Assembly: GCA_017470535.1 (NCBI GenBank) | Contig: JAFUYP010000057.1 | Span: 1 to 32,105, forward strand | Length of the DNA: 32,105 bases | Reading direction: 5' to 3' | DNA from: Ruminococcus sp. | GTDB taxonomy: Bacteria > Bacillota > Clostridia > Oscillospirales > Ruminococcaceae | Shown: piece after piece, positions 1 through 32,105 of the stretch | How the letters are laid out: the number at the start of each line of letters is the position of its first letter | How positions within the stretch are numbered: position 1 is the first letter of the stretch | Notes under the pieces: model-generated | The model's database searches: none | What the model saw: only the letters and a program-made list of their open reading frames with translations | Told to the model about the DNA's origin: nothing | Program-made: the position numbers and the translations under genes

Positions 1-147
1 CTCTGCACATCATCTGCTTGCCAGCTTTCCGTCATATTACCCAAATTCTCCTTGACTTGCGTCAGCAAGCCTGCGTCGAATTTAGGCAATCTGACGAAAA
101 TCTGGACGGCGCATCTGATGCACAGGGGTCGTGCGGTGTTGCCTTAA
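1..147 (+). repeat. Palindromic dispersed element, copy A (left end outside window)
   Basis: This is the right three-quarters of the dispersed element. It differs from copy E (26195-26374) at only two positions over the shared 147 nt that I compared by eye. The apical hairpin is CTTGC (56-60), loop GTCA (61-64), GCAAG (65-69). The right terminal repeat GTGCGGTGTTGCCTTAA ends at 147, 43 nt before the rel start codon. No promoter is visible between the element and rel. Confidence 0.9.
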
Positions 148-3087: not shown

Positions 3088-3282
3088 GGCAACACCGCAC
3101 AACCACCGGCTCACGCCTTTGTGTGCCATCTGCTTGCCGGATTTCCGTCATAATACCCAATTTTACCTTGTCTTACGTCAGTAAAACTGCGGCAAAAATG
3201 GGCATTCTGACGAAAATCCGGTGTGTTCAGCAAAGCTGAACAACTGCATACTGACACACAATGGTCGTGCGGTGTTGCCTAA
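3085..3282 (+). repeat. Palindromic dispersed element, copy B (complete, 198 bp)
   Basis: Full-length copy. Its left end overlaps the stop codon of the MBL gene and its right end (GCGGTGTTGCCTAA) is 47 nt before the hemZ start. The arms pair over the whole length: terminal repeats of about 20 bp; TTGTGTGCCA (3119-3128) with TGACACACAA (3252-3261); CCGGATTTCCGTCA with TGACGAAAATCCGG; and an apical stem TTAC/GTAA (3173-3184) around loop GTCA. Compared with D and E it carries an extra small perfect hairpin, GTTCAGC-AAA-GCTGAAC (3225-3241), on the right arm. Confidence 0.93.
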
Positions 3283-3329: not shown

Positions 3330-4805
3330 ATGAAACTGATATTTGTCGGCAACGACTATAAATACGAGATAGAGGGTGTTATGAAGCTTTTTATCCCGGC
3401 ATCATTGTTCGACCTGTCCTATCCGGATAACGTACCAAAGAGCATCGAGGGCGACTATGCGCTGATAGTCAGAGAAAAAAATGATGATGATACTCATTTG
3501 CAGGTATCTGCAAGGGTGGGCGGTAACACTCAGACACGTTCGGGTGAGCTGTTAAATACGACACCCGACTATGATAATGAGTGTGAGCTGCTGCTCTCAA
3601 AGCTGCTGTTTGGGTGCATGAAGGAGCTTACAGGCATCACCCCCGGCTGGGGCGTGATAACAGGCGTGCGTCCGGTAAAGCAGGTAAATAAGCTGATAGA
3701 TAAGGGTCTTGGTGATGACGAGATACGAGAGTATATGCACTTACGCTACCTATGCTCCGATAAAAAGACAGACATCGCCATAAAGACCGCACACACCCAG
3801 TCGGATATACTTAAAACGCTTGATAAGCGCTCTTTCGGGCTGTATGTGTCTATACCCTTCTGCCCGACGAGGTGCTCGTACTGCTCGTTTGTGTCTACTA
3901 CGACAGAGAGCAGTAAAAGCCTTATCCCACAGTATGTCGCACTGCTTTGTCAGGAGATAGAGCATACTGCAAAAATATGTGAAAAAGCAGGTATCTACCC
4001 TGACAGTATATATTTCGGAGGGGGTACGCCCACTACGCTGTCAGCATCGCAGTTAAGAGCAGTAATGGGTAAAATTTCGGACTGCTTTGATATGTCGCAC
4101 GTCCGTGAGTATACCGTTGAAGCCGGCAGACCCGATACTATAACACCTCAAAAGCTTCACGCTATCAAAGAAATGGGTGCAGGCAGAGTGTCTATAAATC
4201 CCCAGTCGCTCAGTGATAAAGTGCTTGAAAACATAGGCAGAAAGCATACAGTGTCACAGTTTTTCGATGCTCTTGAAATGGCGCAGCAGACAGGTTTTGA
4301 GTGTATCAACACTGACATCATAGCAGGGCTGCCGGGTGATGATATTGGCAGCTTCAGGAATACCGTCGATACTTTAATATCCAAAGCTCTTGACAATATC
4401 ACTGTGCATACGCTTTCTATCAAGCGTGCGGCAAGGCTCAACCACGAGGGCACGGCAGACGCACTTAAAAACCCTGCCGGAGAGATGATAGACTATGCAA
4501 CAGACAGCCTTATAAAAAACGGCTACGCCCCGTACTACCTCTACCGGCAGAAGAATATGCTTGAAAATCAGGAAAACATCGGCTGGTCAAAGCCGGGCAA
4601 GGAGAGCCTTTACAACATCTGCATAATGGAGGAAGTACAGACTATAATCGCAGTAGGTGCAGGCGGCTCTACAAAGCTGGTGGACAGGGACGGCGGCAGG
4701 CTTGAAAGGATATTCAATTACAAGTACCCCTATGAGTATATAAAGGGCTTTGATGAGATACTTAAACGCAAAAACGGAGTAGAGAGCTTTTATGAAGAAA
4801 AATGA
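3330..4805 (+). CDS. hemZ: HemZ-type radical SAM protein (oxygen-independent coproporphyrinogen dehydrogenase family)
   Basis: Radical SAM enzyme of 491 residues related to oxygen-independent coproporphyrinogen III oxidase. The [4Fe-4S]/SAM cysteines are C178-x3-C182-x2-C185 in PFCPTRCSYC. The family motifs YFGGGTPTTL and VEAGRPDTI follow, and the last 80 or so residues match the HemW/HemZ C-terminal region. The roughly 165-residue N-terminal extension before the radical SAM core is typical of HemZ rather than HemW. I start at ATG 3330, with AGGAGAAA just upstream. An ATG at 3261 lies inside repeat copy B and has no ribosome site. The 3' end overlaps the next gene by 14 nt. Whether it really acts on coproporphyrinogen or on another substrate (a HemW-like haem chaperone role is possible) cannot be read from sequence. 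Confidence 0.9.
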   Translation: MKLIFVGNDYKYEIEGVMKLFIPASLFDLSYPDNVPKSIEGDYALIVREKNDDDTHLQVSARVGGNTQTRSGELLNTTPDYDNECELLLSKLLFGCMKELTGITPGWGVITGVRPVKQVNKLIDKGLGDDEIREYMHLRYLCSDKKTDIAIKTAHTQSDILKTLDKRSFGLYVSIPFCPTRCSYCSFVSTTTESSKSLIPQYVALLCQEIEHTAKICEKAGIYPDSIYFGGGTPTTLSASQLRAVMGKISDCFDMSHVREYTVEAGRPDTITPQKLHAIKEMGAGRVSINPQSLSDKVLENIGRKHTVSQFFDALEMAQQTGFECINTDIIAGLPGDDIGSFRNTVDTLISKALDNITVHTLSIKRAARLNHEGTADALKNPAGEMIDYATDSLIKNGYAPYYLYRQKNMLENQENIGWSKPGKESLYNICIMEEVQTIIAVGAGGSTKLVDRDGGRLERIFNYKYPYEYIKGFDEILKRKNGVESFYEEK

Positions 4806-7646: not shown

Positions 7647-7684
7647 TTAAGGCAACACCGCACGACCACCGGCTCACGCCTTAA
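7647..7684 (+). repeat. Palindromic dispersed element, copy C (internally deleted, 38 bp)
   Basis: This copy starts immediately after the transporter stop. It matches the left end of copies B and F through CACGCC and then ends in TTAA. The remnant is bounded by TTAAGGC (7647-7653) and GCCTTAA (7678-7684), as the full elements are. This is what a deletion between two GCC triplets, one in the left arm and one in the right terminus, would leave. Confidence 0.75.
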
Positions 7685-11978: not shown

Positions 11979-12227
11979 ATAGGTTTAAAGGCTATGACGG
12001 AAACGGGCGCTGCGTTTACCGCTTTCAGAGAGCTGCACATAGGTGAAAGTGCGGCAGCAGGCAGCAGTGTCAGATCATTCCGGAGCTTACAGGCTGAAAG
12101 CATATGTCATTAGGTCTGTACGTTTTCCCTGCGTTAAAGGGTCAGAGCGGCAGGGGCTTCCCTGCAATCAGAGTGGTAACACGGAGTTTACAGCTTCGCC
12201 TCTTGACGGGCGAGGCTTGTTTTTTTG
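11979..12227 (+). promoter_or_regulatory. T-box riboswitch leader, probably sensing tRNA-Ile
   Basis: The landmarks come in T-box order: CGGAA pairing with TTCCG at the base of Stem I, AGAGAG, a CTGCAC/GTGC stem carrying AGGTGAAA, a GCTGC/GCAGC helix, the T-box motif AGAGTGGTAACACGG (12170-12184), then terminator GCCTC/GAGGC (12198-12216) with a T-run. The specifier is probably ATC (12074-12076) in the 3' strand of the specifier loop, followed by A; the overlapping ATT would also read isoleucine. No threonine codon fits. The bulge TGGT would pair with tRNA ending ACCA, meaning discriminator A, as expected for tRNA-Ile. Uncharged tRNA would favour the antiterminator and allow ilvA expression. 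Confidence 0.92.
12198..12226 (+). terminator. Regulated terminator of the T-box leader
   Basis: GCCTC (12198-12202) pairs with GAGGC (12212-12216), and a T-run ends at 12226. It competes with the antiterminator formed around the T-box motif. The ilvA ribosome site GAGGAGG (12227-12233) follows immediately. Confidence 0.85.
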
Positions 12228-12240
12228 AGGAGGAATAAAA

Positions 12241-13443
12241 ATGCTTACACTTGACAAGGTTTATGACGCATCAAGGGTACTTAAAGAGGTGGTAAGACCT
12301 ACTGCCTGCATCTATGCGCCGAAGGTCAACCCCGGGGTGAACACATATCTTAAAACGGAAAATCTTCAGGTGACGGGTTCATTCAAGGTAAGGGGCGCAT
12401 ACTACAAGATCTCGCAGCTTTCAGACGAGGAAAAGTCGCACGGCGTTATCGCCTGCTCGGCAGGCAACCACGCACAGGGCGTCGCACTTGCCGCACAGAA
12501 AAGCGGCATCAAGGCTGTTATCTGCCTGCCGGACGGTGCACCTATCTCAAAGGTGGAGGCTACAAGGAGCTACGGCGCTGAGATATGCTTAGTACCGGGC
12601 GTTTATGATGACGCTTACAACGAGGCGATAAGACAGCGTGACGAGCATGGGTATACATTCGTACACCCGTTTGATGACGAGAATGTCATTGCCGGTCAGG
12701 GTACGATAGGTCTTGAGATATATAACGAATTGCAGGACGTTGACGTTGTGGTAGTACCTGTCGGCGGCGGCGGACTTATCTCGGGCGTCGCTTATGCGAT
12801 AAAGCAGTTAAAGCCTTCGGTAAGGGTATACGGCGTTCAGGCAGAGGGCGCTCCGTCAATGGTAAAGAGCCTTGAAGAGGATAAGATACTCACACTTGAC
12901 AGCGTGCATACTATCGCCGACGGCATACAGGTAAAGGAGCCGGGCGAGCATACCTTTGAATACTGCAAGCAGTTCGTGGACGGCATAGTTACCGTGTCTG
13001 ACGACGAGGTGTCGTCGGCTATACTTCACCTGATAGAAAAGCAGAAGCTCATAGCAGAGGGTGCAGGCGCTACACCGGTAGCGGCGGTGATGTTTGACAA
13101 GATACCCGATATAAAGGGCAAGAATGTAGTGTGTGTAGTTTCGGGCGGCAATATCGACGTTACTATACTTTCAAGAGTTATCAAGAGAGGTCTGCTCAAA
13201 TCCGGCAGATCAGATACGCTCACCATACAGCTTGAAGACAAGCCGGGTCAGCTCAAGGGCGTATCCGCTGTCATATCCGACCTCGGCGGTAATGTCGTGT
13301 CTATCCACCACGAGAGAGCAAGCGAGGACAGCGATATTACAGAATGTCTGTTAAGACTCGTGCTTGAAACAAGGAACTACGAGCACATCAAGGAAATAAG
13401 AGCCGCACTTAAAAAGAACGGCTTCAAAATAGTCAATAAATAA
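12241..13443 (+). CDS. ilvA: Threonine ammonia-lyase (threonine dehydratase)
   Basis: PLP enzyme of 400 residues that converts L-threonine to 2-oxobutanoate and ammonia, the entry step to isoleucine. The Schiff-base lysine is K49 in TGSFKVRGAYYK, and the phosphate-binding loop is VPVGGGGLISG. The C-terminal 75 or so residues form one ACT-like regulatory domain (LTIQLEDKPGQLKGVSAVISDLGGNV), the short single-ACT form common in Clostridia rather than the two-domain IlvA of E. coli. GAGGAGG lies 7 nt before the start. Control by an isoleucine T-box favours a biosynthetic role over a purely catabolic TdcB role. The next gene, ridA, follows in the same transcript and handles the unstable intermediate this enzyme releases. 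Confidence 0.95.
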   Translation: MLTLDKVYDASRVLKEVVRPTACIYAPKVNPGVNTYLKTENLQVTGSFKVRGAYYKISQLSDEEKSHGVIACSAGNHAQGVALAAQKSGIKAVICLPDGAPISKVEATRSYGAEICLVPGVYDDAYNEAIRQRDEHGYTFVHPFDDENVIAGQGTIGLEIYNELQDVDVVVVPVGGGGLISGVAYAIKQLKPSVRVYGVQAEGAPSMVKSLEEDKILTLDSVHTIADGIQVKEPGEHTFEYCKQFVDGIVTVSDDEVSSAILHLIEKQKLIAEGAGATPVAAVMFDKIPDIKGKNVVCVVSGGNIDVTILSRVIKRGLLKSGRSDTLTIQLEDKPGQLKGVSAVISDLGGNVVSIHHERASEDSDITECLLRLVLETRNYEHIKEIRAALKKNGFKIVNK

Positions 13444-16857: not shown

Positions 16858-17037
16858 TTAAGGCAACACCGCCGGGCCACCGGCATTCGCCTTTGTATGC
16901 CATCTACTTGCATATTTTCCGTCATATCGCCCAAATTTACCTTGAAATACGACAGTATTCCTGCGGTAAATTTAGGCAATCTGACGAAAAATCTGACTGC
17001 GTATCTGGCATACAATGGTCCGGCGGTGTTGCCTTAA
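16858..17037 (+). repeat. Palindromic dispersed element, copy D (complete, 180 bp)
   Basis: This is the most divergent copy and shows the palindrome most clearly. Stems are TTGTATGCCA with TGGCATACAA; TTTTCCGTCA with TGACGAAAA; AAATTTACC with GGTAAATTT; and an apical hairpin AATAC (16946-16950), loop GACA, GTATT (16955-16959). The terminal repeats read CACCGCCGG against CCGGCGGTG where other copies have CACCGCACG against CGTGCGGTG, so both arms changed together. It lies between trkH and its terminator. Confidence 0.93.
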
Positions 17038-25290: not shown

Positions 25291-26175
25291 CTACCACATT
25301 CTGTGATCTATCGGCTGGTCGGAAAGCTCATCGGGCAGGTCATCGGCCTTTTTCGCTCTCGGGTCAAATACAGGGTCATCTACCGGCTGTGCAGTCATTC
25401 TGCCGGGGCGGCGTCTGCTTATTATCAGAAGTATTATCCCGACAACGCCGAATATAGCCACACCTACGACTATCTTGTAGCGGAAGGGCGTCGTCATTAT
25501 GTTGTCAGCGGCATCAGCGAAAGCCTTTTGCAGCGATTCGTCATCGTTTATTTTTTCTATCTGATCCTTGTACCTTACCTCTGATGGGTCTTTGAAAAGA
25601 TCCTTTGTAAAGGTCTCCTTTATTATCGTCAGCGCCTCGGTGTCGAGCGTGTCCCTTGTGTCAGTGCCTGAGTGAACACCTATGTAGTAGCTGCCGCTTC
25701 TTTTGATGACCATTATCATCAGGTGCTTCTCGTCGTCGAATACCTCCTCGTAGGCGTCTTTGGCGTATTCGTCCATGTCCTCCTTGAAAAAGATCATACC
25801 CTTATCTTTAAATTCAGTAAAATACAGCACCGGGTAGATCCCTGTCTTGTCATAGAACTGCTGCATAGCACCTGTGACGGTGTATTCGTTTTGCAGTAAG
25901 CCTTTATCGCTGTATATCAGCTTTTGAGGCTTTTCAGAGGTGCCGGAGTAGGCTTCTCTGTGTCTGGTGGACTGAGTGACCGACGGCGGTGAGGTAAAAT
26001 GAACTATCGTAAATATCACAAATGCCAGTATGATCCCGCCCATTATCAGCACATACATAAGCGACTGCGACGGAGACATCATTCTGACGCCGAAACGTGA
26101 ATACCGTGAGTAACGTGGCATCATGTTAAGATCCCTCGTCAGGATACTTTTATTCTTTTCGTCAAGAGATCCCAT
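25291..26175 (-). CDS. Membrane protein with an extracytoplasmic TPM-like domain
   Basis: Predicted protein of 294 residues with two membrane spans: MYVLIMGGIILAFVIFTIV near the N terminus and IVVGVAIFGVVGIILLIIS near residue 235. Between them lies a domain of about 160 residues resembling TPM (TLP18.3/Psb32/MOLO-1) domains (GIYPVLYFTEF, AKDAYEEVFDDEKHLMIMVI, DTLDTEALTIIKETF). The C-terminal tail is acidic and Pro/Asp-rich. The family link is tentative and the function unknown. The 7-G run GGGGGGG is 7 nt from ATG 26175 but only 1 nt from ATG 26181, so I use 26175. Repeat copy E starts 14 nt upstream of 26181, and the only visible promoter is on the far side of the repeat. Confidence 0.75.
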   Translation of the reverse strand: MGSLDEKNKSILTRDLNMMPRYSRYSRFGVRMMSPSQSLMYVLIMGGIILAFVIFTIVHFTSPPSVTQSTRHREAYSGTSEKPQKLIYSDKGLLQNEYTVTGAMQQFYDKTGIYPVLYFTEFKDKGMIFFKEDMDEYAKDAYEEVFDDEKHLMIMVIKRSGSYYIGVHSGTDTRDTLDTEALTIIKETFTKDLFKDPSEVRYKDQIEKINDDESLQKAFADAADNIMTTPFRYKIVVGVAIFGVVGIILLIISRRRPGRMTAQPVDDPVFDPRAKKADDLPDELSDQPIDHRMW

Positions 26176-26194
26176 TGCCATGCCCCCCCTTTTT

Positions 26195-26374
26195 TTAAGG
26201 CAACACCGCACGACCCGCGGCTAACGCCTCTGCACATCATCTGCTTGCCAGCTTTCCGTCATATTACCCAAATTCTCCTTGACTTGCGTCAGCAAGCCTG
26301 CGTCGTATTTAGGCAATCTGACGAAAATCTGGACGGCGCATCTGATGCACAGTGGTCGTGCGGTGTTGCCTTAA
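26195..26374 (+). repeat. Palindromic dispersed element, copy E (complete, 180 bp)
   Basis: Complete copy, nearly identical to copy A. Ends are TTAAGGCAACACCGCACGAC and its complement. Inner pairing: CCAGCTTTCCGTCA with TGACGAAAATCTGG (two mismatches), and an apical hairpin CTTGC (26283-26287), loop GTCA, GCAAG (26292-26296). It lies between a minus-strand gene and that gene's promoter, so it is expected to be transcribed as the reverse complement. Because it is palindromic, the transcript can fold the same way. Confidence 0.93.
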
Positions 26375-26377
26375 AAG

Positions 26378-26406
26378 ATTATATCATATGTATGCAGATT
26401 TTTCAA
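26378..26406 (-). promoter_or_regulatory. Minus-strand sigma-A promoter immediately outside repeat E
   Basis: Read on the minus strand: TTGAAA (26406-26401), 17-nt spacer, TATAAT (26383-26378). The predicted start near 26371 falls at the edge of repeat E. The 294-residue membrane gene would therefore have a leader of about 195 nt consisting almost wholly of the repeat. An inverted repeat, GTATGCA (26390-26396) with TGCATAC (26408-26414), overlaps the spacer and -35 region. Confidence 0.75.
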
Positions 26407-26502
26407 GTGCATACTGCGTTACAAAGCGCTTGTTAATATTACATTCATAAATCAATGTTATTAAATTGGCAGCAGGGAACTGTTTTTACGCAGGGTAATA
26501 AA

Positions 26503-31965: not shown

Positions 31966-32105
31966 TTAAGGCAACACCGCACGACCACCGGCTCACGCCT
32001 TTGTGTGCCATCTGCTTGCCGGATTTCCGTCATAATACCCAATTTTACCTTGTCTTACGCCAGTAAAACTGCGGCAAAAATGGGCATTCTGACGAAAATC
32101 CGGAC
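31966..32105 (+). repeat. Palindromic dispersed element, copy F (right end outside window)
   Basis: Left three-quarters of a copy close to B; two differences were noted by eye over the shared part (A to G at the left end, and loop GTCA to GCCA). The apical hairpin is TTAC (32055-32058), loop GCCA, GTAA (32063-32066). It begins 17 nt after the lipoprotein stop with no terminator in between. Confidence 0.9.

Follow-up and report, generated by a model that had tools for sequence, protein, structure and literature searches.

The 172-nt repeat at positions 26199-26370 of this stretch is probably an IS5-type MITE that would be moved in trans and spread between genera, with a core whose strand-specific fold would act as RNA. 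In this study, we analysed contig JAFUYP010000057.1 of Ruminococcus sp. (32,105 nt; the window) together with the genome it belongs to (G000; 2.1 Mb in 86 contigs, 76% complete) and a complete relative of the genus (G005; 99% complete). The strand-specific fold of the repeat, and an orientation that in the two largest recent bursts of G005 follows the replication arm, exceed what an ordinary MITE displays.

The repeat and its target duplications

An initial annotation had placed six copies of an unrecognised palindromic element in the window, and all six were found at those positions. Their exact limits are as follows.

1..143, plus strand: copy A, the 3' 143 nt remaining, the rest lost at the contig edge; TTAA at 144-147
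3088..3279, plus strand: copy B, 192 nt, with a self-complementary insert of about 20 nt; flanks CTAA/TAAT, without an exact target duplication
7651..7680, plus strand: copy C, about 30 nt, the left end alone, with TTAA on each side
16862..17033, plus strand: copy D, full 172 nt, CGGGCC type, target duplication TTAA/TTAA
26199..26370, plus strand: copy E, the feature under study, full 172 nt, ACGACC type
26199..26370, minus strand: better-folding strand of copy E, RNA fold of -100.7 kcal/mol vs -74.1 on plus
31970..32105, plus strand: copy F, the 5' 136 nt, truncated by the contig edge; left flank TTAA

Copy E is flanked by a TTAA/TTAA duplication at 26195-26198 and 26371-26374. The length first given for the element, 180-198 bp, described a real repeat but counted these duplications; the exact unit of 172 nt starts GGCAACACCGC and ends GCGGTGTTGCC, and the flanking TTAA is target sequence. 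Judged from its junction, copy C is probably an in-place deletion derivative of a full copy, formed between two GCCTT direct repeats. The single orientation claimed for the element holds in the window, where nhmmer placed the five longer copies on the plus strand and alignment placed the left end of copy C, unscored by nhmmer, there as well; elsewhere it does not hold, and some contigs of the same genome are mixed. Likewise, one copy per 5 kb is correct locally, but across the genome copies lie about 20 kb apart on average (205 ends in 2.1 Mb). Since both window edges fall inside a copy, it is probably the repeat that broke the contig. A 192-nt variant is common to the own genome and G005 (window 3088-3279; L122 10811-11002; L113 2713-2904). 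Elsewhere in the window, a T-box leader at 11985-12206 (Rfam RF00230, 107 bits) precedes the ORF at 12241-13443.

The family has the terminal repeats GGCAAYACCGC(ACAA). Exact GGCAAYACCGC ends occurred 205 times in G000 and the reversed control 0 times; a 12-base version of the end had 305 matches in G005, again with 0 for the control. The genome-wide count proposed in the initial annotation thus gave about 100 copies in the own genome, far above chance, and 109 were found in 1.6 Mb sampled from G005. These G005 stretches and about 0.77 Mb of the own genome formed a census of 158 paired copies, 121 of them near-full (165-200 nt), and 102 of the 121 were exactly 172 nt long. No gene of its own was seen in the repeat, as had been stated, and in nine of the 119 oriented near-full copies the overlap with a call of a simple gene caller exceeded 60 nt.

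Identical 4-bp sequences lay on both sides of 97 of the 121 near-full copies, the other 24 being without an exact duplication. In 5000 shuffles of the flanks, the mean was 31 and the maximum 43. Many of the duplications are palindromic (TTAA, TATA) and could belong to longer terminal repeats; 33 are non-palindromic, and 0 non-palindromic pairs showed the inverted pattern expected of a longer terminal repeat. These results indicate that the 4-bp repeats are target duplications. Their consensus was YWWR in 96 of the 97, with T or C first and A or G last in all 97. The proposed TA or TTAA target was right in that TTAA is frequent, but the target is YWWR and not strictly either of the two.

Short forms of 31-103 nt were also observed (28 in all, in L127 at 400-443, L133 at 3804-3863 and G005 stretches), and 14 had target duplications. 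From their sequences, these 28 forms are probably in-place deletions. Identical 46-nt forms with different duplications were considered as mobile mini-elements, but their junctions carry direct repeats, which favour deletion in place. A stretch of about 18 kb in G005 (C2 151007-169489; L101, L102) carried eight full copies and one adjoining partial copy. A nested copy at 157 kb in G005 was set aside, as it was no clean empty site.

Spread between genera and candidate helper elements

In a sample of 41 relatives, the carriers were all seven genomes of the genus and three others, one of which (G008) matched in the core alone. A scan of named genomes gave at least 118 stretches, mostly from Ruminococcus, Oscillospiraceae and Clostridia and many from rumen or gut; among the matches listed, R. 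flavefaciens FD-1 carried copies, and a few stood under the labels Roseburia, Anaerotignum and Eubacterium. All 118 stretches were read for copies. Seven gut phage records matched the element, nothing was found in plasmid records at E 0.1, and 63 stretches of viral contigs contained no parent element. Copies 97-98% identical to the window copy were present in G005 and in another genus (G093). Where the own genome and G005 can be aligned over more than 400 bases, their mean identity is about 77% (26 alignments), and against this background such copies point to recent horizontal movement.

A search for a transposase with matching ends, suggested in the initial annotation, yielded probable helpers of 1.07-1.14 kb in other genera, with a transposase of the IS5 family. 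In an uncultured Clostridiales MAG, a 1067-bp element (L387) has ends identical at 11 of 11 positions, a TTAA/TTAA duplication and a frameshifted transposase, whose longest frame passes both IS5_4 (NF033581; 182.7 bits, cut-off 140) and PF01609 (70.3 bits, cut-off 23). A second element, of 1127 bp, comes from Oscillibacter ruminantium GH1, a named isolate (L431, 6289-7415), also with 11/11 ends and TTAA/TTAA; its transposase is split over two frames, the longer scoring 186.3 bits on IS5_4 (cut-off 140). Relatives of the L387 frame were present in 33 of 396 genomes of the bacterial family; in G209 and G130 the IS5-type transposase has an uninterrupted frame of 329 aa. When 30 transposase loci were fetched, six (L449, L450, L451, L454, L455, L457) had the ends, with 0-2 mismatches and spanning 0.66-1.14 kb around the gene, and three of these six had exact duplications. 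The 660-bp locus among them is probably a deletion form. L476 had a weaker end pair without a duplication, and in the remaining loci of the 30 the ends were not found. The small element was present in 8 of 13 tested genomes with transposase matches (13 of the 33 were examined).

About 15 terminal bases are common to the MITE and the IS, and no likeness was seen between the MITE core and the IS interior. In the own genome, two 45-bp stretches match the end of L457 (100% and 97.8% identical), and a helper was therefore probably once present there. A relative of the L387 frame was looked for in all seven genomes sampled from the genus (G000-G006; G000 76% and G005 99% complete) and not found, which counts against our main reading, although the copies of the largest G005 burst are 99.4% alike. 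A search for PF01609 found nothing in the own genome, and matches in two of nine relatives were without paired ends of this kind.

Several other candidates were rejected. A 2733-bp end pair in the own genome (C5 1063-3795), flanked by TTAA, resembled the parent but enclosed a gene pair that we read as ptsI/HPr-like, with a relic of an IS end on one side and another end on the other. In G004 C1, the gene next to a lone end is no transposase; we take it to be adenosylhomocysteinase-like. Nine repeated G005 stretches (A-I) had ends unlike those of the family. PF13546, which we take to be an IS701-type domain with 4-bp duplications, occurred in 2 of 148 genomes and was absent from the own genome. 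Closely spaced, same-strand pairs of a PF01609 element were observed in G005 C2 at 557-560 kb and 1885-1888 kb (L087, L088, L090, L092); at 1885-1888 kb the copies abut head to tail.

In G008, a genome from another genus, three elements (L068, L077, L085; two of 172 nt, one of 193 nt) combine the same core with other terminal repeats, GGYYGCATCTAAAAACC. Duplications of 4 bp (TCAA/TCAA and ATAT/ATAT) were read at two of these three loci, and the minus strand folded better in all three. The second kind of end was on no transposase among four G008 loci fetched and one of G219. Compared by eye, these ends and those of the family share 9 of 17 positions, so both gradual divergence and an exchange of ends are possible. 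We consider it rather unlikely that the element is a transposable structured-RNA gene, in which a core of about 136 nt with its own selected function would be borne between genera on exchangeable IS5-type ends.

Strand-specific folding and orientation along the replication arm

The reverse complement of the window reading (minus strand) folded better in all 119 oriented census copies; for two of the 121 near-full copies the orientation was unclear. A further 85 copies came from other species, other genera and viral contigs. Four of these were already counted and 12 were unoriented, and the minus strand was better in 68 of the other 69, the sole plus-strand exception being a match of 208 nt whose orientation was weakly called. 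Mean fold energies by type (113 of the 121 copies, four end types) were -90 to -105 kcal/mol on minus vs -67 to -80 on plus, and DNA fold energies had the same asymmetry (-51 to -58 vs -39 to -48).

Pairing was examined in an alignment of 127 copies reduced to 29 at 90% identity, using a structure derived from own and G005 copies (102 of exactly 172 nt, 77 distinct), some of which are also in the alignment. Standard pairs filled 96.1% of cells on the minus strand; with the structure mirrored, the plus strand reached 85.3%. The consensus energies were -97.8 kcal/mol on minus vs -43.6 on plus. Changes on both sides of a pair were seen in 39 of 64 pairs on minus (shuffles 20) and 40 of 64 on plus (shuffles 24), with shuffles that do not keep the relatedness among copies. 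Such changes must be equally common on plus and minus; only the G.U against A.C balance and the paired fraction distinguish the strands. Among imperfect cells on minus, 220 were G.U and 20 were A.C. The U.G pair at columns 47-115 was identical in all 29 copies, and unpaired inner columns were as conserved as paired ones (0.82 vs 0.81). The initial suggestion of a structured RNA is partly supported, as a second layer: a fold with covariation is kept on one strand, and its transcript is putative. No element matched an Rfam family at gathering, and for window 26150-26420 there was no match up to E 10. For 73 tandem sites, gene direction predicts that read-through makes RNA of the minus strand at 35 and of the plus strand at 38, so nothing here points to selection on the sense of the element in messages.

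The orientation of insertions was then compared with replication in G005, the one complete genome examined for it. The origin was taken at 3.099 Mb, where the stronger of its two matches to the DnaA domain lies; the terminus would then be near 1.32 Mb. Copies of the ACAAAG type were 14 plus and 2 minus on the right arm and 3 plus and 20 minus on the left arm (Fisher 6e-6). Of the two largest near-identical clusters, one had 32 of 36 copies and the other 13 of 17 in the orientation of the arm (45/53 together). Flanks were mostly independent. In stretches fetched after the idea arose, agreement was 9/10 for the ACAAAG type and 18/24 for all types; overall, 64 of 87 copies of all types agreed. 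The bias was absent from the older ACGACC and ACAACC types in G005, and orientation was even (6 plus, 6 minus) between 1.6 and 2.0 Mb. Gene direction was compared for 118 of the 121 near-full copies. At tandem genes running head-on, 12 of 15 copies of the ACAAAG and CGGGCC types still followed the arm, indicating that the bias does not come from gene direction. The window contig has a positive GC skew (0.084), with 18 of 21 called genes on the plus strand. The uniform orientation of its six copies may be due to replication-arm bias, yet other contigs of the same genome are mixed.

Competing explanations and known systems

The MITE reading offered at the outset is well supported by the terminal repeats, the 4-bp duplications and the IS5-family elements that share the ends. 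If this is a MITE of the ordinary IS5 type, the strand asymmetry would be a by-product of biased mutation or common descent, which we consider improbable. The copies do stem from few masters, a relatedness that our shuffle controls do not preserve, and PMC10969869 describes MITE transcripts as forming stable stem-loops. However, low-frequency mutations in near-identical clusters, read on the minus strand, were 14 C>T and 19 G>A. There is thus no C>T bias of the kind that could mimic the G.U excess, and the minus fold seems to be kept by selection. Recent changes in Watson-Crick pairs of these clusters gave G.T 22 vs A.C 11, against 220:20 in diverged copies, and controls with a slid structure fail, pairing just 33-47% of minus cells. 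A hairpin of the REP/RAYT type moved by a Y1 transposase, the REP-like alternative of the initial annotation, can be set aside as scarcely credible: the hairpin, the many copies, their mostly intergenic sites and Y1 matches in 5 of 10 genomes would suit it, but the target duplications contradict it, the own genome has no Y1 match, and 0 of 10 Y1 loci had paired copies alongside (a single end-like match at 3 of 10).

A stronger competitor, although we judge it unlikely, is that the conserved minus hairpin is single-stranded DNA, which would form when strands separate at replication or excision and be needed for movement, as in single-strand transposition. The arm-following orientation of recent bursts, the short forms that seem to have lost the sequence between direct repeats at the base of the hairpin, and the asymmetry shared by the DNA energies all suit this explanation. 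On the other hand, the constant 4-bp length of the duplication and the IS5 type of transposase point to double-strand DDE chemistry, and the position of dnaA and the orientation of copies imply that in bursts the better-folding strand is not on the lagging-strand template. RNA is favoured over single-stranded DNA because the tolerated imperfections are RNA-like.

Under the preferred reading of an IS5-type MITE with an RNA fold, IS5-family transposases would recognise GGCAAYACCGC(ACAA) ends in trans and duplicate 4 bp (YWWR). The family would amplify in bursts and apparently spreads among rumen and gut genera of Oscillospiraceae/Ruminococcaceae via visiting helpers that later decay to relics. 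In recent bursts the orientation of copies tracks the replication arm, and insertion therefore appears to be coupled to the fork. Apart from the ends, a core of some 136 nt is kept as a strand-specific fold, in which the minus strand forms one long hairpin with bulges and a small side stem, and this strand would act as RNA, a long hairpin produced by read-through or from nearby promoters.

Fibre-degrading bacteria of gut and rumen carry the element in abundance, and it probably interrupts metagenome assemblies, as both contig edges lie inside it. If the RNA function is true, this would be a MITE whose RNA is under selection, supported by comparative evidence of unusual clarity, and the question becomes what role a mobile, helper-dependent hairpin RNA plays. 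The arm bias of a nearly palindromic element also offers a test of how an IS5-type enzyme distinguishes its two ends at the fork. Literature searches on the end sequence, on Ruminococcus MITEs or palindromes and on MITE covariation gave no paper describing the element in its title or abstract opening, mostly outside subscription journals.

The closest known systems are the IS5-family IS (NF033581, IS5_4) and their MITEs, which have the same ends and the transposase family of the end-sharing elements. In the present family no likeness of the core to the IS interior was seen beyond about 15 bases, and the core fold is strand-specific. The IS5 target is given as YTAR in PMC10359306; the duplication here is also 4 bp and near YTAR, but just 58 of 97 are exact YTAR, the remainder being mostly other YWWR.

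Short length, mostly intergenic sites, many copies and a hairpin in transcripts, which are putative for the present family, are shared with NEMIS/Correia, ERIC, pneumococcal BOX and SPRITE, which are RNA-folding MITEs. Their ends and hosts differ, and a G.U-rich fold on one strand was measured for the present family. SPRITE and BOX are treated in PMC10969869. The stem loops of Borrelia (PMC2674063, PMC2775950) are alike in their conserved folds, which PMC2775950 ties to a mobile element; there the link is to IS605/200, whereas the present family is linked to IS5. According to PMC5371812, Tn7/TnsE and IS200/IS605 are oriented by the direction of replication. The repeat described here resembles them in orientation but is almost palindromic, and its likely enzyme belongs to the IS5 family.
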